Below are positions 5,734 to 14,052 of a stretch of 64,000 bases of DNA, one piece after another. Location of the stretch: contig JADGAR010000004.1 in the NCBI GenBank assembly GCA_015231915.1, positions 23,753 to 87,752 of the forward strand, written 5' to 3'. Under the pieces are notes generated by a model. It made no database searches, was not told the DNA's origin, and was given only the letters and a program-made list of their open reading frames with translations. Position numbers and translations under genes: made by a program. This DNA comes from Magnetococcales bacterium (lineage in GTDB: Bacteria > Pseudomonadota > Magnetococcia > Magnetococcales > Magnetaquicoccaceae). How positions within the stretch are numbered: the stretch's first letter is position 1; every line of letters starts with the position of its first letter.

Positions 5734-6411
5734 TCAACTGTTCCGAAGTTGCGCCCGCACGCCGTCGATGGCGAGGAGTTCGGGCATGGTCTCCAACCAG
5801 TGGTCGGGACGCGCCTCGGTCAACCGGGCGCGGGAGTGGCAGCCGTAGGTGACCGCTGCGGTCCATGTCCCGGCATTGCGTCCCATTTCGATATCATAAA
5901 GTGTATCGCCCACCATGAGGGTTTGGGAAGCGGAAAATCCGGTGGCGCGTAATATATTTTCCACCATGGCGGGATGGGGTTTGCTGGGGGCCTGATCGGC
6001 GGTCATGACGGCGGTGAAGAAGTGTGCGAGGTCGTGTTCCTGGAAGGTGCGTTGCACGCCGCGCAGGGATTTGCCGGTGGCCACGCCCATCACGACCCCG
6101 GCGGCTTCCAGGGTTTCCAGGGTGTCGCGCACGCCGGGAAAGAGCGGGGCGAGCAGTTCGCGGCCATCGGCCATGGCCTGATAGTGGCGTTTGTAGCCCA
6201 GCACCGCGTTGGTGCGAAACTCCGGGTCGGCATCAGGCATCAGCGTCGCCATGGCCTCCTCCAGGGAGAGGCCCACCACCTGGGCGATGTCGTCATGGGA
6301 GAGGTCGCGGTGGTATCCCAGTTCGTCGAGTGCCCGTTGCGCCGCGCGCGCGATTCCGTCCAGGCTGTCCACCAGGGTGCCGTCGCAGTCGAAGATGATC
6401 AGGTCGAACAT
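5734..6411 (-). CDS. HAD-superfamily phosphatase, phosphoglycolate phosphatase-like
   Basis: A 225-residue HAD subfamily IA hydrolase. Motif I is FDCDGTLVDS near the N-terminus, with two catalytic Asp residues. Motif II is the Thr in GVATGKS. Motif III is KPHPAM, and motif IV is MVGDTLYDIEMG. The likely activity is dephosphorylation of a small phosphorylated metabolite, with phosphoglycolate as the usual guess for this type. Two adjacent ATG codons (6414, 6411) follow AAAGGA; I use the second for better spacing. In related bacteria such a gene often follows rluC, so it may mark the original neighbour of rluC at 13063-14052. Confidence 0.85.
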   Translation of the reverse strand: MFDLIIFDCDGTLVDSLDGIARAAQRALDELGYHRDLSHDDIAQVVGLSLEEAMATLMPDADPEFRTNAVLGYKRHYQAMADGRELLAPLFPGVRDTLETLEAAGVVMGVATGKSLRGVQRTFQEHDLAHFFTAVMTADQAPSKPHPAMVENILRATGFSASQTLMVGDTLYDIEMGRNAGTWTAAVTYGCHSRARLTEARPDHWLETMPELLAIDGVRAQLRNS

Positions 6412-6439
6412 CATTTTTTCCTTTGGTTGCGATTCGGGT

Positions 6440-7240
6440 TCAGGGGATGCCGATGCCCGCGAGGTGCAGGGCCTCCAGGGCCAACGTCTTGCGCAGGGGG
6501 GCGGCATCCAGGGCGTTCATCGGGATGCGCACGGCGACCGCCGTCATTTTGCCATGGCTTTCCATCCAGCCCGCATACCACCCGATCCCTGGTGTCACGG
6601 ACGAGGCCCAGCCGGTTTTGCCGTAGAGACGCGCCTCCCCGACCTGCTCCTGGGGGATCAGACGGCGCAGTCCGGCCAGGGTGTGGCTGGAAAAGGGGAG
6701 CGTGCCGGTGGCCAGGCGCGCCATGAAGCGGGCCTGCTCGACAGGCGAGATCGCCAATGGCCCGTCGAGCCAGAACCGATCCACCACCTGACCCGTATCC
6801 CCATTGCCGTAGCCGATTCTGGTCACCCATTCCGCCATGCGCTGTTGGCCGATACGCCGGGCGATTTCCTGAAACACCGGCACCGAGGAGACGGCCATGG
6901 CCTCCCGGAGGGTGAGTTCCTTTTCCCAGGCCTTGAAGGGCATGGGGGAACCGTTCCAGGGGAAGATCTCCTCTTCCCGTACCGCTCCGGTTTCCAGGGC
7001 AATGAGGGCGTTGACCACCTTGAAGGTGGAGGCGGGCAGAAAACGGTGGTGGCCGCAAGTCTCGTCGGAGACCCGTATCCGCTCCGGATCGGTCTCCAGC
7101 AGGACGATACAGCCCGTCACCCCGGCCTTTTGCAGGATTTCGGCCAATCCGGGTTCCTGCCGGGTCTGCGCCTGGCAGAGGGGCAAGGCGCACAACAGGG
7201 CCAGGATCGCACCCAATAGGTTAAATCGTTTGGGCTTCAC
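6440..7240 (-). CDS. Class D (OXA-type) beta-lactamase
   Basis: A 266-residue exported protein with a signal peptide (MKPKRF, hydrophobic core, cleavage near CQA). All class D motifs are visible and in order: STFK (catalytic Ser and the Lys that becomes carboxylated), SSVPVF, YGNGD, FWLDGPL and YGKTGW, then GWYAGW. Class D enzymes hydrolyse penicillins and sometimes oxacillin or carbapenems; the spectrum cannot be read from sequence. Its start lies 20 bases inside the end of the DUF4435 gene, so translation is probably coupled to it. A 28-base gap leads to the HAD gene. It has no cassette attC site or insertion sequence next to it. Confidence 0.88.
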   Translation of the reverse strand: MKPKRFNLLGAILALLCALPLCQAQTRQEPGLAEILQKAGVTGCIVLLETDPERIRVSDETCGHHRFLPASTFKVVNALIALETGAVREEEIFPWNGSPMPFKAWEKELTLREAMAVSSVPVFQEIARRIGQQRMAEWVTRIGYGNGDTGQVVDRFWLDGPLAISPVEQARFMARLATGTLPFSSHTLAGLRRLIPQEQVGEARLYGKTGWASSVTPGIGWYAGWMESHGKMTAVAVRIPMNALDAAPLRKTLALEALHLAGIGIP

Positions 7241-8108
7241 GCTTCAGAGCATCCATGAAATCCGCGATTTCCGGATCAATGATGGCATGAGATTTTATGC
7301 TGCGCGCCAGAGCGAATTTATTGATTGTCACCTTTTGGTCGAAGACCTCCGAAAGGCGTTCCAGGAACATTTTCGGATCGATCAAGCGATTGATCCGATC
7401 CCAGCGTTCTTCCGGATCCGTGGTTGTGGTGCGCAGAAAAGCGATCATGCGATTGTATTTATCGGTCAGCGCGGCATCGGGATTCTCCACGGCTTTTTTT
7501 TGCAAATGTTCGAGAATTTTATTACGCAACTCCTTGCAATCGCGCGGTTCCTTGTCAGAGTGCATACCGAAATGCATGCCCAAGTTGCGGTGATCATGTT
7601 CGAGAAGCACCAGATTGGCCGCAGTCAGGAGAATGGCTTCCTCAGAGCAATCCACCATGCACTTGGCCAGGATGCGAACCGAGATTGGTGTTTTTTGCGG
7701 TGCATGATCCGTCAGATATTCATGTACGGCAAATGGATGCAGCACATAGTTCTCAATTTCGTATCTTTTCAACACTTTAATGTAATTTCCCAAAAATTGT
7801 CTGACGGCGTTGTCGAAAATTGCCGCGTCTGGTTCGAAAAATGTTTCCCGTCTCACCATGACATCCCGGTCCACGATGCCATAGGCGCGGATATCGTTGT
7901 TGCGATCCTTCGTTACCCGATGTCGCACTGCGGCGGATCCACCACCGCCCCCCTCCGGGAGATCCACAGTCGTGAAGATGATCCATTCCCCCCATGTCGG
8001 GAACCAGCGTTCCCGCAGGATCTCCAGGTCGTCCTGTGATTCCAGATAGACCGTGATACGTTGCGGATACCGTTTGGACGGCCTGGTGCTGGCGGTGATC
8101 GATGGCAT
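7221..8108 (-). CDS. DUF4435-type, Toprim-like protein; AriB-like partner of the ATPase upstream
   Basis: A 295-residue protein. A strand with an acidic residue (VYLESQDD, Glu23) and the pair Asp80-Arg-Asp82 in GIVDRDVM are laid out as in DUF4435/Toprim-like nucleases. A later segment reads YEIENYVLHP, typical of this family. DUF4435 proteins commonly pair with an ABC-type ATPase; in the anti-phage PARIS system they are AriB (Toprim) and AriA (ATPase). Here the ATPase gene lies just upstream with an 11-base gap. The family call is from motif pattern and context, so AriB-like function (nuclease unleashed by the ATPase) is an inference. Confidence 0.68.
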   Translation of the reverse strand: MPSITASTRPSKRYPQRITVYLESQDDLEILRERWFPTWGEWIIFTTVDLPEGGGGGSAAVRHRVTKDRNNDIRAYGIVDRDVMVRRETFFEPDAAIFDNAVRQFLGNYIKVLKRYEIENYVLHPFAVHEYLTDHAPQKTPISVRILAKCMVDCSEEAILLTAANLVLLEHDHRNLGMHFGMHSDKEPRDCKELRNKILEHLQKKAVENPDAALTDKYNRMIAFLRTTTTDPEERWDRINRLIDPKMFLERLSEVFDQKVTINKFALARSIKSHAIIDPEIADFMDALKREAQTI

Positions 8109-8119
8109 GGCTGCAACCT

Positions 8120-9274
8120 TTAAATTTCATTTCTCTCAATAAGATATCCACCAAGATGCAAGCCGGGATCCCCGTTTTTGAGGTCAACCTCGAACTGCTC
8201 GATGAGTTCCAAGGAGTGGGTGGTCACGATCAAGGTCAAATTGGGATGGGCCGCGATCAGCCCGCGCAAGGCATGATACAGGCGGTGTTGCAGTTTGACG
8301 TGCAGGTGGGCATCCAACTCGTCGATCAGGATGATCGAATGAGTGGTCAGGTGCAGATGGATGCGCAGCAGCAACTGCACCATACTCTTTTCCCCGCTGG
8401 AAAGCTGATCCAGACGGTGCCGGCTGCCACGGTCGATGACATTCGCCTTCAGTTCGCTGCGCACGATTTGATCCAGCGCCTTGTCGGTTTCGGCAAACAC
8501 CGATTCGTTCAGCAGTTTTTGCACCTGTTCGTAGCGTCCGTCATCCAGCCATGTCAGCCAGACCAGCAGATTGTCCAGGCTGCCACGCCACTGCTCGCCA
8601 TGCGCGCCGAAGTGATGGACCGGCCAATAGGTCCACGCTTCCGGACGGCTGATGGTGAGTCGGCTTCTGTTCATGACCGGGATGTCGCGGTAGGCATCGA
8701 AATAGAGCAGCGAAGGCACGGTCAGGGTATTAGGCCCGAATGCCTGATAAGCGCTTTTGGTTTCCGCCTTCACCAGTCCGAGCAACTCCTCCACCAGGTC
8801 GTCGGCGGATTTTTCCAGTTTCCATCTCCCTCCCGGAGAACGGGTCCAGGCAATGTGCAATTGTTCCCTGGTCTGTGTCCGTTCCCGCTCCCCGGCATCC
8901 CGGTTTCTCAGATTCCAGGGTTGTCCCTCGCCTGCCGCCAGGGTCAGGAGGATTTCCCGCGTTCGACCGCCCAGGCTGACGGCGAGTCGCAGATCCAGTT
9001 GCGCCCGCGCCTTGGGATGAGACCACAGGCGGGAGTGCAGGTTCTTTTCGGAGGGGGTCAGGTCGGGAGCCAGCAGGCGCATCAGGCTGGCCATGGCCTC
9101 CAGCAGGGTGGTCTTGCCGAAACCGTTGCGGGAGATCAGCAGGTAAAAGTTGCTTATTTTGCCGGTTTCATTAATAAAATCCAAGGTGATCGGCTTTTCC
9201 TGGAACGGCCCCATGCCCAATACGGTCAGGGCGAGGGGGCGGCATTCGCGAATCTGGAGCGCGTCGATCATCAT
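8120..9274 (-). CDS. AAA/ABC-type ATPase, OLD- or AriA-like
   Basis: A 384-residue ATPase. Walker A is SRNGFGKTT (residues of about 48-56). The ABC signature is LSSGEKSM near residue 295, Walker B is IILIDELDAH near 318, and the switch His is in VTTHSLEL. The length and lack of a long coiled coil fit AAA_15/AAA_21-type ATPases such as OLD and AriA rather than SMC proteins. It has no Toprim domain of its own; the next gene (DUF4435) could supply it. The start overlaps the stop of the FtsK-like gene as ATGA at 9271-9274. It probably acts as an ATP-driven sensor or scaffold in a defence complex (inferred). Confidence 0.82.
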   Translation of the reverse strand: MMIDALQIRECRPLALTVLGMGPFQEKPITLDFINETGKISNFYLLISRNGFGKTTLLEAMASLMRLLAPDLTPSEKNLHSRLWSHPKARAQLDLRLAVSLGGRTREILLTLAAGEGQPWNLRNRDAGERERTQTREQLHIAWTRSPGGRWKLEKSADDLVEELLGLVKAETKSAYQAFGPNTLTVPSLLYFDAYRDIPVMNRSRLTISRPEAWTYWPVHHFGAHGEQWRGSLDNLLVWLTWLDDGRYEQVQKLLNESVFAETDKALDQIVRSELKANVIDRGSRHRLDQLSSGEKSMVQLLLRIHLHLTTHSIILIDELDAHLHVKLQHRLYHALRGLIAAHPNLTLIVTTHSLELIEQFEVDLKNGDPGLHLGGYLIERNEI

Positions 9275-10776
9275 GCCCCTCCGATGCCGCGCAGGGTGGC
9301 GGCGATGTCATCATCGGTCACGTATACCCCATGGAGGCGCTGCATGGGTTGACCGCTGAGCCGGATCAGCATGTCTCCGGCCCCGGTCAGTCGCTCGGCA
9401 CCGGTTTCGTCGAGGATGATCTTGGATTCCGTGGATTTTTGCACGGTCAGGGAGATGCGGGACGGGATGTTGGAGCGCAACATGCCGTTCACGACGCGGG
9501 CATCCGGACGCTGGGTGGCGATGACCAGATGGATGCCGGTGGCCCGCGCCTTTTGGGCCAGGCGAATCAGGTGTTCCTCGGCCATCGGGACCTGCATGAT
9601 CAGATCGGCCAGTTCCTCGACGAAGACGACGAGGAAGGGCAGGGCCGACACTCCCCGGCGATGCGCCTCGGTCAGGTCGCGCACGCCGGCCTTTTCCAGG
9701 GTCACGGCGCGGCGTTCCATCTCCTCCACCAGTCCTGCCAGCTCCTTGTTGGCATCCTCCACGTCGGTGAGCACCGTGATCCGCTTGGAGGCGGCCTTGG
9801 CATACAGGCCGAATTCCATCTTTTTCGGGTCGATGAGGACCAGTTTCAGGCGTTCTTGCGCCACTCCGATCAGCAGGGAGAGGAGCAGACCATGCAGACA
9901 GACGCTTTTGCCACTGCCGGTGGTCCCGCCGACCAGGAGGTGGGGCTGGGTGGACAGATCGAAGCATACCGGCTGGCCGGTCACGTCCACGCCCGGCCAA
10001 ACCGGCAGGCTGCCATTCGGCTGGGTGTCCTGGCGGATCCAGGCGCGCAGATCCTGGCCGGAGAGGGTTTTCCAGGTCGCGCGCGGGCGGGGGATGTCCA
10101 GGCCGATCATGCGTGGCTGTCCGGTTTCCGCCGGAAAGACGCCGAATTTGTGCAATCCGAGCACGAAGGCGATTTTGTCCAGGCCGCGCCGCACCCGGTC
10201 CAGGTGGTTGGCATCCATCAGGCGCACCAGGCAACGGGTGATGCGTGGTCCGTCGATGGTCTCGGCAACCTCACCGCGCACGCCGATTTCCAGCAGGGCG
10301 GCCACAAGCCGTTCGCCGAGATCGGACGTGTCCGCAGTCGGGTTCTGGTCCTGCCCGGCACACAACTCCTGATAGAGGTACTGGTAGAAATCGTGTCCAT
10401 CCCGCCAACCCCGGCGGAACTCCCGCAGGCCCCGCCGGATGTGACGTTGCAAATGTCTGACGAATGCCTTTTCGTCGGCGAAGAGGTCCTCGCCGGAATG
10501 GATCGACAGCATCCCCCGGAAGGCATCGGTGAAATCCTGCTGCTGCCCGAACGGGCTGCGGCCTTGTCCCTGGCCGGTGACCTGTGTGAGTCCATACTCC
10601 GAGCCGCGTGTGCCGATCTGGTCCAACGCTTCGTCGGGAGGGGTGGGAAGCCGCAGGGAGCGGGCCAAAGCCAGGCGCATCACAGTCCACTTGGGGGCCT
10701 TGCCCATCAGCAATCCCTTGTGCAGGATATCCTCGATGGTCTTTTCGTCGTCGCGGCTGGTGAAGATATCGGCCAT
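9271..10776 (-). CDS. DNA translocase: DndE-like N-terminal domain fused to FtsK/HerA motor
   Basis: A 501-residue protein without membrane segments. The C-terminal half is a clear FtsK-type motor: Walker A GGTTGSGKSV near residue 285, LVLIDPKKMEF, VVFVEELADL (Walker B, with VEE in place of the usual xDE), IATQRPDARV and NIPSRISLTV. There is no C-terminal gamma domain. The first 150 or so residues resemble DndE (DUF1832): VMRLALARSL, then GSEYGL, and a basic helix HLQRHIRRGLREFRR, in the order seen in DndE. That assignment is from remembered family patterns and needs a profile search. GAGGGG precedes the start, 4 bases after the DndD-like gene. It probably moves along or pumps DNA for the complex. 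Confidence 0.8.
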   Translation of the reverse strand: MADIFTSRDDEKTIEDILHKGLLMGKAPKWTVMRLALARSLRLPTPPDEALDQIGTRGSEYGLTQVTGQGQGRSPFGQQQDFTDAFRGMLSIHSGEDLFADEKAFVRHLQRHIRRGLREFRRGWRDGHDFYQYLYQELCAGQDQNPTADTSDLGERLVAALLEIGVRGEVAETIDGPRITRCLVRLMDANHLDRVRRGLDKIAFVLGLHKFGVFPAETGQPRMIGLDIPRPRATWKTLSGQDLRAWIRQDTQPNGSLPVWPGVDVTGQPVCFDLSTQPHLLVGGTTGSGKSVCLHGLLLSLLIGVAQERLKLVLIDPKKMEFGLYAKAASKRITVLTDVEDANKELAGLVEEMERRAVTLEKAGVRDLTEAHRRGVSALPFLVVFVEELADLIMQVPMAEEHLIRLAQKARATGIHLVIATQRPDARVVNGMLRSNIPSRISLTVQKSTESKIILDETGAERLTGAGDMLIRLSGQPMQRLHGVYVTDDDIAATLRGIGGA

Positions 10777-10780
10777 GCCA

Positions 10781-12814
10781 TTACCCCTCGTACATGGTGC
10801 GCTGTTCCACCTGCGTCCGGTCGCCGTGGGGATTGAGCAGCCGGTATTCGCGGTAAACGTGCGGGGCGAGCAGCCGGTATTTTTCCGGATCCAGTTCCGA
10901 GTCCGTGGGCAGCAGAATCACTTGCTCCGCCGCATTGGGAAAATATTCCCGCAACAGGTTTTCCTGGTTTTGCCGATCAATCCGTGCCAGCGGTGTATCG
11001 ATGATGACCGGAACCGTTTTGCCGGAGACCTCCTTCATGGCCCAAAGCAGGGCAATGGCAATGAGTTGTTTCATGCCTGCGGAAAAATTGGCGCCTCCAA
11101 GCAGGTCTCCCTTTTTGTCCAGGAATTGCCGACCGAAATGTTCGTTAATCCTGATATGATGCACCAGATCGTGACCGGTCATGATGGCCTTGAAGTGACG
11201 ATTGATCGCCATTTCCATGGATTCTCTCCGTCTTTTTCTCAGTTCATCCTTGTAACTCTTGAACAACTCGATCAGGCGATCAACCAGTAATGCATAATGA
11301 CGATTCTTTGCAGCATTTGTAATGATTTTTTCCTGCTCGGTCAACTCAATCTGTTTGCGTTGCATTTCGCGCGCCTTGGTCTCGCAATCCATGGTTACGC
11401 CACCAAGCGCCTTGAGAAGCGTCTCCTTTTGTTGCCTGAGTTCCCGCAACTCTTCCTGCATCCGATAATAGCGTGGCCGATCCTCGTCAATGACCGCATG
11501 GATTTCCTCGATCAACTGGCTCAGTTCACCCTCTCGCCTTGCCAGACGGCTTGCTTCCTGCAAACGGCGGGCGTGATCCGGCATGGGATTGTCGTCCACC
11601 AGGCGGGTCATCAAGCGACGCAAGGCCTTTTGGCGGGTCGAATCCAAAGAGTATGTATGCCCCTTGACGCCATCGCTCTCGACAAGCCGCCTCTCTTCCA
11701 AGGCATTTTGCAGCCTCTCCTTGTAGAAAGTCTTCTGATCTTCCCTTAACCGATGCCTGGGTGGCACCGGATGCTCGAAGAGTTCCGACGGCAAATGGTG
11801 TCGCAGATACGCCAGCAGTTCCTTTTTCGGCCCAAGTTCTTGGTCATTCTGTTCCAACCGGTCAAGCACCTCCCGCATCACGGTCGGGTTGACTACCAGT
11901 GGCGCCTCCGGGACGAATCGTTCCATCAGTTCATGGCGAATCCTGGTCAGTTCCTCTTGCACCTGTTTGAGTTCGGCCTTGTGCCTGGCCTCTGCCTCTT
12001 GCGCGCGCATACACTGCAAATTGCGCAATCCGCGTTCCATGTCGGCATATTTTGCTGCCAATTCCTCGATTTCTTTGTCAAGGTTTTTCTTCGACGCATG
12101 CAATTCGGCCAATTGATTGCACAATGCATCCAGTTCACTCTCAAGCTTGTTGAATTTTTTCAGTTCTGCATCAACGGCGCTTTCCCTGGCCCAGTCTCTT
12201 TTGACTTTAACCAGGTAATCTGCCAGTGTATTGACTTGGGCAATGTTCAGGATCCCCTCAATCTCCTTTTCCACGATGCCCTCGTCGGCTTCGGCCAGCA
12301 TCTGAATTTTCTCCCCATCAAAGAAGAAAAAGGGAAGATATGCCGGAGGGAGCCGTTTTTCCAGGAACGCTTGCGCAGCCTTTCCTTCCAAGGATTCACT
12401 CAAGAAATTGGCATGGATCGTCAATCGTCCTTCAGGGTCGAAGGCCCCATCGGGAAACCACTCCCGCTTGACATCAACGGCGCCCGACTGCTCAACCCAC
12501 TGGCAGCGGACATAATAGGCCGCATTCTTGGTTTGATCACGACTGGTTCGGTTGAACACTCCCATCCACGCATCGCCATTTCCGAGCATGTAGGGTTTTG
12601 GTCCCAGGATACGACCAACCATCACACCTCTGCGCAACTCCTCGCGCGGGCCGACAAACAGTAGTTTAATGGAATTGAGAAAGCCGGTTTTTCCAAAACC
12701 GTTTCGTCCACTGATCAATACAATCGAACGATTTTTTTCGTGTCCGGCAATATTGAAAATTACCGACTGATGGTATGAAAACAGATTGCAAATTTCAATC
12801 TGCTGAAAAATCAT
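10781..12814 (-). CDS. DndD-like SMC/Rad50-type ATPase
   Basis: A 677-residue ATPase in head-coiled-coil-head layout. The N-terminal Walker A is SGRNGFGKT (residues 35-43). A phenylalanine-rich FFFFDGEKI near residue 160 is a hallmark of DndD. Long heptad-rich helices run from about 200 to 520. The C-terminal head has FSAGMKQL (signature) and VIIDTPLARID (Walker B/D-loop). DndD supplies ATPase function in Dnd phosphorothioation systems. The partners DndA, DndB and DndC are not in the window, so the role here is probably restriction or sensing rather than sulfur insertion. The coding region looks visibly richer in A/T than its housekeeping neighbours, which suggests transfer. Confidence 0.82.
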   Translation of the reverse strand: MIFQQIEICNLFSYHQSVIFNIAGHEKNRSIVLISGRNGFGKTGFLNSIKLLFVGPREELRRGVMVGRILGPKPYMLGNGDAWMGVFNRTSRDQTKNAAYYVRCQWVEQSGAVDVKREWFPDGAFDPEGRLTIHANFLSESLEGKAAQAFLEKRLPPAYLPFFFFDGEKIQMLAEADEGIVEKEIEGILNIAQVNTLADYLVKVKRDWARESAVDAELKKFNKLESELDALCNQLAELHASKKNLDKEIEELAAKYADMERGLRNLQCMRAQEAEARHKAELKQVQEELTRIRHELMERFVPEAPLVVNPTVMREVLDRLEQNDQELGPKKELLAYLRHHLPSELFEHPVPPRHRLREDQKTFYKERLQNALEERRLVESDGVKGHTYSLDSTRQKALRRLMTRLVDDNPMPDHARRLQEASRLARREGELSQLIEEIHAVIDEDRPRYYRMQEELRELRQQKETLLKALGGVTMDCETKAREMQRKQIELTEQEKIITNAAKNRHYALLVDRLIELFKSYKDELRKRRRESMEMAINRHFKAIMTGHDLVHHIRINEHFGRQFLDKKGDLLGGANFSAGMKQLIAIALLWAMKEVSGKTVPVIIDTPLARIDRQNQENLLREYFPNAAEQVILLPTDSELDPEKYRLLAPHVYREYRLLNPHGDRTQVEQRTMYEG

Positions 12815-12817
12815 AAT

Positions 12818-13066
12818 TTAGTTACTCGATGTATTGGGCATGGCGTGATCGATCCTCCTGCGGATCTCCATTTCATACGCAGTCTTGTTGCCATGTTGAT
12901 CCAGAATCGGGTAGAAATCGTAGGCAAGCCGCAGCAGACCGTACACCAGTTCCGGATTAAGATCACTCCTGGCAAGCAAGTCATCGAGAATATCATCTGG
13001 AACATCCATGAAAATATCGTGTCCTTTCGGTGTGTGGGATGTGGCCATAATCTTCGGGCAGTTCAT
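12818..13066 (-). CDS. Small protein encoded at the head of the DndD-like/FtsK-like island
   Basis: An 82-residue acidic-to-neutral helical protein (PDDILDDLLARSDL, ELVYGLLRLAYDFYPILDQ). I do not recognise it with certainty; small proteins of this size occur next to Dnd-type and other DNA-modification systems. ATG 13066 overlaps the rluC stop as ATGA; internal ATGs at 13048 and 13009 are possible starts. The stop lies 3 bases before the DndD-like gene, so it is likely co-translated with it and may be a structural or regulatory subunit. That role is inferred only from position. Confidence 0.62.
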   Translation of the reverse strand: MNCPKIMATSHTPKGHDIFMDVPDDILDDLLARSDLNPELVYGLLRLAYDFYPILDQHGNKTAYEMEIRRRIDHAMPNTSSN

Positions 13067-14052
13067 CCATTTCGTAGCGCCAATTGTGCCAAAACCCCCG
13101 TCAAAATCCCATCCAGCGGCGCCTCGACCGCTTGATCTTTTCCGCTTTCCGGATGGGGGAAGACGATGTGCCGGGCATGCAGGAACATGCGCGTCAGACC
13201 CAGCTTCCGCAACTGCCGGTTGAGGAGAAAATCGCCATACTTCTCGTCCCCGGCCACCGGGTGGCCGAGCCATTGCAAATGCACCCGGATCTGATGGGTG
13301 CGGCCCGTCTCCGGATGGGCGGAGAGCAAGGCCAGATCCCGGAATCGCTCCAGCACCCGATAGCGGGTGCGGGCGCTTTCGCCGACCGTCTCCCCGGCGA
13401 TCACCATCCGCTCCCCGCCCCGCGCCTCTCCTTTCACCAGTGGCCGGTCGATCACCCCGGCATCGGCGCGGGGAATCCCCTTGACCAATACCAGATACCC
13501 CTTCTCCACCCGGCCCTGACGAAACGCCTCGGTCAAACGCCGCACCGCCATCTTGTCCAGACCGAACAACAGACACCCGGAGGTCTCCTTGTCCAACCGA
13601 TGACACAACTCCGGTGTCGCGTCCCCGCCTTCCCCCCGCATCCAGGCGCGCACCGCGTCCACGCTCCCCCACTCCAGACCGCTCCCCCCATGCACCGGCA
13701 CGCCGTGCGGCTTGTCGAGCACCAGCACCCGTTCGTCGCGCCACAAGATTCGCTTTGCCACCTCACGCACTGCCCACTCCGGAACCTTGTTGCCGGTCTC
13801 GGGCACCGCAGGCTGGTATGGCGGCACCCGTATCTCCTCGCCCTCCGTCAGACGATAGCCGCCCTTCGCCCGCGCCCCGTTCACCCGGGTCTGCCCGGTG
13901 CGCAGCCAACGCTGTATCAACGCCATCGGCGCCCCGGCATTGCGATCGGCCAGAAACCGGTCCAAACGCATCCCGGCCTCCTCCCGGTTTACCCGCGCAT
14001 GCCGCACCGGTAATTTTTCCGCTGCCTTCTCTTCAACTGGCTTTGCTTCCAT
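13063..14052 (-). CDS. rluC: 23S rRNA pseudouridine synthase, RluC/RluA family
   Basis: Converts specific uridines of 23S rRNA to pseudouridine. An N-terminal S4-type RNA-binding domain (residues of about 20-80, MRLDRFLADR...) precedes the synthase domain. The catalytic motif is HRLDKETSG, with the Asp as nucleophile. Later conserved blocks are GRTHQIRVHLQWLGHPV and LHA. At 329 residues it has the normal length. It is the first gene of the minus-strand run and its TGA overlaps the ATG of the small island protein by 4 bases. RluC rather than RluD is chosen from size and the alphaproteobacterial context; substrate positions are not provable here. Confidence 0.87.
   Translation of the reverse strand: MEAKPVEEKAAEKLPVRHARVNREEAGMRLDRFLADRNAGAPMALIQRWLRTGQTRVNGARAKGGYRLTEGEEIRVPPYQPAVPETGNKVPEWAVREVAKRILWRDERVLVLDKPHGVPVHGGSGLEWGSVDAVRAWMRGEGGDATPELCHRLDKETSGCLLFGLDKMAVRRLTEAFRQGRVEKGYLVLVKGIPRADAGVIDRPLVKGEARGGERMVIAGETVGESARTRYRVLERFRDLALLSAHPETGRTHQIRVHLQWLGHPVAGDEKYGDFLLNRQLRKLGLTRMFLHARHIVFPHPESGKDQAVEAPLDGILTGVLAQLALRNG

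Follow-up and report, generated by a model that had tools for sequence, protein, structure and literature searches.

What can a Dnd-type gene cluster do when the sulfur-insertion enzyme DndC is missing? The question is raised by five ORFs on the minus strand of a 4.02 Mb Magnetococcales genome, which run from position 13066 to position 7221 of the window, that is, the whole 64,000-nucleotide stretch of DNA analysed here. A sequence-only reading had listed these ORFs with junctions of 3, 4, -4 and 11 bases, and all of them are present as quoted. The genes of the locus, with the evidence for each, are as follows.

13063..14052, minus strand: rluC (23S rRNA pseudouridine synthase type), upstream host gene; stop codon overlapping the ATG that opens the Sp frame
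12818..13066, minus strand: Sp (Sp-DndD-type tail of DndC); aligns solely with the C-terminal ~60 aa of DndC
10781..12814, minus strand: DndD ABC-type ATPase, 677 aa; TIGR03185 above the curated cutoff, motifs
9271..10776, minus strand: DndE-FtsK fusion translocase, 501 aa; FtsK_SpoIIIE, with DndE and FtsK_alpha below cutoff
8120..9274, minus strand: OLD/PtuA/AriA-type ABC ATPase, 384 aa; AAA_21/AAA_15, AriA and PtuA models
7221..8108, minus strand: predicted DUF4435 Toprim nuclease, AriB-like, 295 aa; DUF4435 below cutoff, AriB weakly, predicted fold

The earlier reading took the set for a distinct, phosphorothioate (PT)-free kind of island. It is instead a truncated, dndC-less copy of a conserved dndC(+Sp)-dndD-dndE/ftsK-OLD-DUF4435 operon, in which dndC usually lies directly upstream.

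Protein families encoded by the island

The Dnd origin proposed for the island is borne out by profile searches. The window DndD (12814-10781) scores 260.2 bits with TIGR03185 against a curated cutoff of 245.85. A pattern search found FFFFDGE, part of the FFFFDGEKI string from which a DndD-like ATPase had been recognised, together with a Walker A motif, a signature-like FSAG and a Walker B-like VIIDTPL. Walker A motifs occur in all three ATPases of the window along with Walker B-like motifs, and signature-like motifs occur in DndD and the OLD ATPase; these motif names, like that of the Toprim-type acidic residues below, follow general patterns that we take to apply to the window proteins. A CxxC zinc hook was found neither in the window DndD nor, within residues 151-520, in any of the 51 clustered DndD proteins with lengths of 651-699 aa, and PbeC, the best PADLOC model for the window DndD, was ruled out for lack of CxxC. 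A PDB sequence search returned nothing for this protein.

The translocase (10776-9271) matches FtsK_SpoIIIE at 6.4e-40 and has the DndE-like start that had been suggested for it: residues 24-119 match DndE (PF08870) at 22.4 bits and 1.6e-4, below the Pfam cutoff of 25, and the precomputed annotation of several close homologues includes a DndE domain. Of 6781 database matches, the best 120 have lengths of 472-514 aa. DndE domains unfused to FtsK were seen in two Thiomargarita loci, as a stand-alone domain in L084 (4643-5083) and followed by a further C-terminal part in L083 (377-2614); DndC is located elsewhere in both genomes.

The last two proteins had been linked to a PARIS-like ATPase/DUF4435 pair, and both sequence models and predicted fold support the link. 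The ATPase (9274-8120) matches AAA_21/AAA_15, AriA and PtuA models and resembles PtuA more closely than AriA in structure. Its partner (8108-7221) matches the DUF4435 model below cutoff and AriB weakly and contains Toprim-type acidic residues. Its predicted fold matches chains of the AriA-AriB complex and corresponds to that of the PARIS nuclease AriB. A sequence search of the PDB produced no useful match for the DUF4435 protein. One search returned the AriB-like protein alone, yet BLAST among the related loci matched 51 members of one cluster, and the idea of an orphan was dropped. A DUF4435 profile search found the protein in further genomes as well, with 10 strong matches and one weak match in a phylum-wide sample of 398 genomes; nine of the 10 strong matches lie inside the operon.

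A class D beta-lactamase-like gene (6440-7240; 249.5 bits with NF012161, cutoff 250) overlaps the DUF4435 gene by 20 nt. It was not found at seven loci from the same genus (L099-L105) that carry the neighbouring HAD gene.

A conserved operon across related loci

Genome contigs scanned with a DndE-FtsK alignment provided 62 related loci, which were picked by two peptide patterns and are therefore biased to near relatives. Duplicate records (L016, L017, L024, L026, L027 and L082) were dropped before counting, and L023 and L085 are one genome. Because automatic gene calling picked antisense ORFs in the GC-rich window and in some Magnetococcales loci, counts were obtained from six-frame profile searches, in a tally of 64 loci.

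Clustering gave a recurrent order that opens with a ~440-aa protein and continues with DndD, DndE-FtsK, the OLD ATPase and the DUF4435 protein. This first protein is DndC: a representative scores 347 bits with TIGR03183 (cutoff 290.4), and its residues 379-426 match Pfam Sp-DndD just below cutoff. OLD and DUF4435 occur together in 52 of the 55 loci whose sequence extends for 2400 nt or more downstream of DndE-FtsK, so the gene order read from the window is not a product of chance. The two were not both found in L051, L054 and L083, the last of which is tallied as lacking OLD though its contig begins inside DUF4435. Where 3900 nt or more of upstream sequence is available, DndD and Sp each occur in 47/47 loci and the DndC body in 44/47, a count that takes in split, frameshifted and relocated copies. 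The exceptions are the window, L050 and L084, whose contig begins ~320 nt before Sp and whose DndC lies elsewhere in the genome, as noted above. In Rhizobium-type loci, dndC belongs to a distinct dnd cluster further upstream. Across 52 loci, the four proteins show correlated pairwise distances, with r values of 0.87-0.92 compared with a largest label-shuffle value of 0.18. P-values throughout treat related sequences as independent.

Two neighbourhood features were also seen. In L034, L055 and L081, an adenosylhomocysteinase-cluster gene immediately precedes the operon and a methylenetetrahydrofolate-reductase-cluster gene follows it at a short distance (each cluster has one annotated member); these flanks are possibly a preferred insertion site. 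A TIGR04096-type 'DNA phosphorothioation-associated putative methyltransferase' cluster, two members of which are annotated, is found in nine loci (L032, L047, L056, L071, L073-L075, L077 and L080).

Loss of DndC and retention of Sp

The first small ORF, which the sequence-only reading had left unnamed, is by alignment the C-terminal Sp part of DndC. Its frame is open from ATG 13066, which overlaps the rluC stop as ATGA, and the start homologous to that of relatives is ATG 13009, giving 63 aa. The window Sp is 59% identical to residues 427-485 of the L025 DndC and covers profile positions 377-435 of 442. It has no Pfam match (max E 10), and PF20306 Sp-DndD gives below-cutoff matches to the tails of some relatives.

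In line with the absence of the sulfur-insertion enzyme already asserted for the island, no DndC was detected elsewhere in the genome. TIGR03183 (DndC) has 0 matches in the window's own genome, where a DndC query finds the tail piece alone; supply of DndC in trans was rejected, as none was found there. G016 and others of the family or order are recorded as Magnetococcales. Among the Magnetococcales, DndC is intact in G016, G023 and G035, damaged in G011 (stop or frameshift) and G036 (internal deletion, with OLD also split) and reduced to Sp in the window and G017; the G012 contig ends inside DndD. The DndC body is missing from both G017 and L050/G061, which keep Sp, DndD, DndE-FtsK, OLD and DUF4435, and L050, a locus outside the Magnetococcales, has Sp and no DndC match in its genome. 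The genomes with DndC loss are drafts, G017 being rated 96% complete. Frameshifts in MAGs can be assembly errors, but the absence of the whole body with a host gene abutting Sp is not explained in this way.

A candidate internal start in dndC

Sp is a separate gene in several lineages, and in L028 and L029 one in-frame stop lies between the body and Sp. Where dndC is fused, the body/Sp border has an ATG or GTG accompanied by a Shine-Dalgarno (SD) sequence. In the best 15-column interval, such a start with an SD energy at or below -5 kcal/mol is found in 24 of 34 fused genes (21 at -7), the top count among 471 intervals (median 2, 95th percentile 12). No start codon is present at the border in four of the 34. 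For the 30 genes with a start, the mean SD energy is -8.28, versus -4.85 after synonymous-codon shuffling with the protein fixed; the energy falls below the shuffle in 25/30 and does so individually at p < 0.05 in 12/30, and it is no better than the shuffle in L018, L033, L054, L063 and L079. At 362 other in-frame starts in the body, the values are -3.19 and -3.31 for the shuffle, a small shift in the opposite direction. At the Sp start of the window (13009), the only SD is AAAGGA, which is weak and distant.

The SD-bearing start at the body/Sp border leads us to predict Sp as an independent subunit, which is probably also made separately from within dndC. Internal translation within a defence gene has a known precedent in McrBS (PMC12707154, PMC12602166). 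Internal translation in McrBL/McrBS yields a second, shorter protein, as predicted for Sp; the product there is an AAA+ domain, whereas that of the window-type operon would be an Sp subunit of ~63-78 aa.

Phylogeny, constraint and probable gain of the island

In a tree of 63 loci (1818 columns), G017 groups with the DndC-intact G016 (support 0.999), and the window falls outside a group of the other seven Magnetococcales (support 0.984). The DndC losses in the two are thus separate if the dndC form is ancestral. A loss shared by the window and G017 was rejected because of this grouping and because the flanks differ: the window copy adjoins rluC, and the G017 copy a gene judged cation-transporter-like by visual inspection of its sequence. 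The dates of the losses cannot be fixed.

Deviations at near-invariant columns number 0/183 in G017 and 1/187 in L050, which gives no sign of relaxed constraint in these dndC-less loci. The branch of G017 measures 0.218, versus 0.297 for its DndC-bearing sister G016. The window deviates at 6/186 columns, the fifth highest value of 57 loci compared; three of these six deviations fall on the 20 columns of its DUF4435 protein, more than at any other locus shown.

The DUF4435 family of the operon has no match in ten other same-genus genomes (57-98% complete), and at seven same-genus loci (L087-L093) rluC lies next to rne without an Sp tail beside it; we infer from both that the island was gained in the window's lineage. 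The distance between rluC and the HAD gene is ~20-26 kb in G002, G005 and G010 and ~6.6 kb in the window (5734-14052), where the island lies between them, so the site has been rearranged.

Discussion

How might the island act without DndC? Starting from the observed gene set and its conservation, the absence of a detectable DndC, the intact ATPase and Toprim residues and the AriB-like predicted fold, we predict that the window island is a phosphorothioate-independent abortive-infection system, a tentative reading to which we assign a probability of about 0.45. In this working model, DndD, DndE-FtsK and Sp would form a DNA-scanning, translocating complex. The OLD ATPase would sense disturbance or stalling of the scanner on invader DNA and release the Toprim nuclease, as in PARIS, and the released nuclease would cut tRNA, as AriB does, or DNA, and growth would stop. 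Sp would be a separate subunit that normally arises from an internal start inside dndC, and such a subunit would survive the loss of the dndC body. Full operons would also mark DNA with sulfur, which is not expected of the window copy. The island would serve to detect foreign DNA and shut down the cell rather than to modify its own DNA, along the lines of what the sequence-only reading had considered.

The alternative that survives best is a silent remnant: the effector pair would need phosphorothioate or DndC, and the window copy would be inactive and decaying. In the archaeal DndCDEA-PbeABCD system, PbeABCD was neither toxic nor protective once single dnd genes had been removed (PMC6459918), so a copy that tolerates the loss of dndC is not necessarily active. 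The damaged dndC genes of G011 and G036, the split OLD of G036 and the deviations of the window, including those in DUF4435, fit such decay. Against it, all four large ORFs of the window are open with catalytic motifs intact, the dndC-less G017 and L050 are without relaxed constraint, and the branch of G017 is not longer than that of G016. Given the Pbe precedent and the 6/186 deviations of the window, we keep the working model at the level stated above and regard the remnant as doubtful, though it carries real weight.

Could the transcript instead combine two independent systems, one a Dnd module in decay and the other a PARIS-like pair that functions by itself? The remaining strong DUF4435 match, in G028 (L122 7102-9261), is an OLD-DUF4435 pair without Dnd genes within the 17 kb examined, and L051 and L054 have the Dnd genes without the pair. 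However, the order conserved in 52/55 loci, the 4-base overlap or close spacing in the window and the correlated distances indicate one unit, and we consider two systems improbable. Classical restriction-modification, in which self DNA would carry the DndC mark and OLD-DUF4435 would cut DNA that lacks it, would suit the presence of the dndC body in nearly all loci and the protection of virus DNA by PT in the Pbe system (PMC6459918), but it is the least probable reading, since genomes without detectable DndC keep the effector active-site residues, which a self-attacking cutter should not allow, and since the effector fold is nearest to AriB, described as a tRNA nuclease. The loss of DndC with retention of the effector active-site residues argues against simple cutting of unmarked DNA, though it is no proof that the effector is active.

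The phosphorothioate-independent reading can also be put more broadly. In a Dnd-PARIS hybrid with a core of Sp-DndD-DndE/FtsK-OLD-Toprim, the sulfur mark would be dispensable and the Sp gene would sit within dndC, an add-on dropped repeatedly to leave a PT-free DNA-scanning abortive-infection machine. We offer this wider version as a conjecture that is rather unlikely to hold in full.

How does the operon compare with known systems? Like PARIS (AriA-AriB), the window pairs an OLD-type ATPase with a downstream DUF4435/Toprim protein whose predicted fold is AriB-like. However, PARIS is a stand-alone pair of genes, whereas the window pair follows DndD and DndE-FtsK inside a Dnd operon, and the window ATPase is structurally nearer to PtuA. 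PARIS is further marked by its triggering through phage anti-restriction proteins and by tRNA cleavage. In Septu and retron PtuA systems, the partner is PtuB, an HNH protein, and not a Toprim protein as in the window. With the DndABCDE operon, the window shares DndD above the curated cutoff and a DndE-domain match below the Pfam cutoff; it differs in that DndE is fused to FtsK and that its genome has no DndC found, whereas relatives carry DndC (one tested above the curated cutoff). PT modification by Dnd calls for a DndC sulfurtransferase with a PP-loop and cysteines, and for DndA or another cysteine desulfurase in its place. DndF, DndG and the multidomain DndH were not among the matches listed for seven proteins scanned, and the SspH model matches solely the FtsK half of the translocase in this set. 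DndCDEA-PbeABCD (Xiong 2019) follows a likewise two-module logic of Dnd modification plus a second defence module. In the window-type operon, the second module is OLD-Toprim, and its DndD lacks the CxxC of the PbeC/CxC clade; PbeA (HKD nuclease-SF2 helicase) was not among the matches listed for the seven proteins, the best 25 in the case of two of them.

Part of this arrangement is already in print. Rakesh, Aravind and Krishnan (2024; PMC10853773) describe DndE-FtsK fusions ('clade-3 HerA/FtsK') beside DndD-type ATPases and also list DndDE dyads without PT genes. The window has the same DndE-FtsK beside a DndD-type ATPase as these HerA/FtsK-capture systems, with its DndE part below the Pfam cutoff. 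In the main text of that paper, DUF4435 and PARIS are absent, and OLD occurs once and Toprim twice. PARIS-like pairs have been recruited to BREX, according to a BREX survey (PMC12839542). Within the main texts searched, no named system with the exact five-gene set was found, in keeping with the earlier reading. Searches on DUF4435, AriB or Toprim with Dnd turned up no description of the joined operon, and those on DndC with internal translation none of the internal start.

If the working model is true, a Dnd operon can come with a PARIS-type effector of its own, and annotation tools would split one system into two. With the internal dndC start, fused operons of this kind would gain a subunit that has been overlooked. 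Natural dndC-minus copies such as that of the window would allow a direct test of Dnd defence without phosphorothioation, the question raised by DndDE loci without PT genes.
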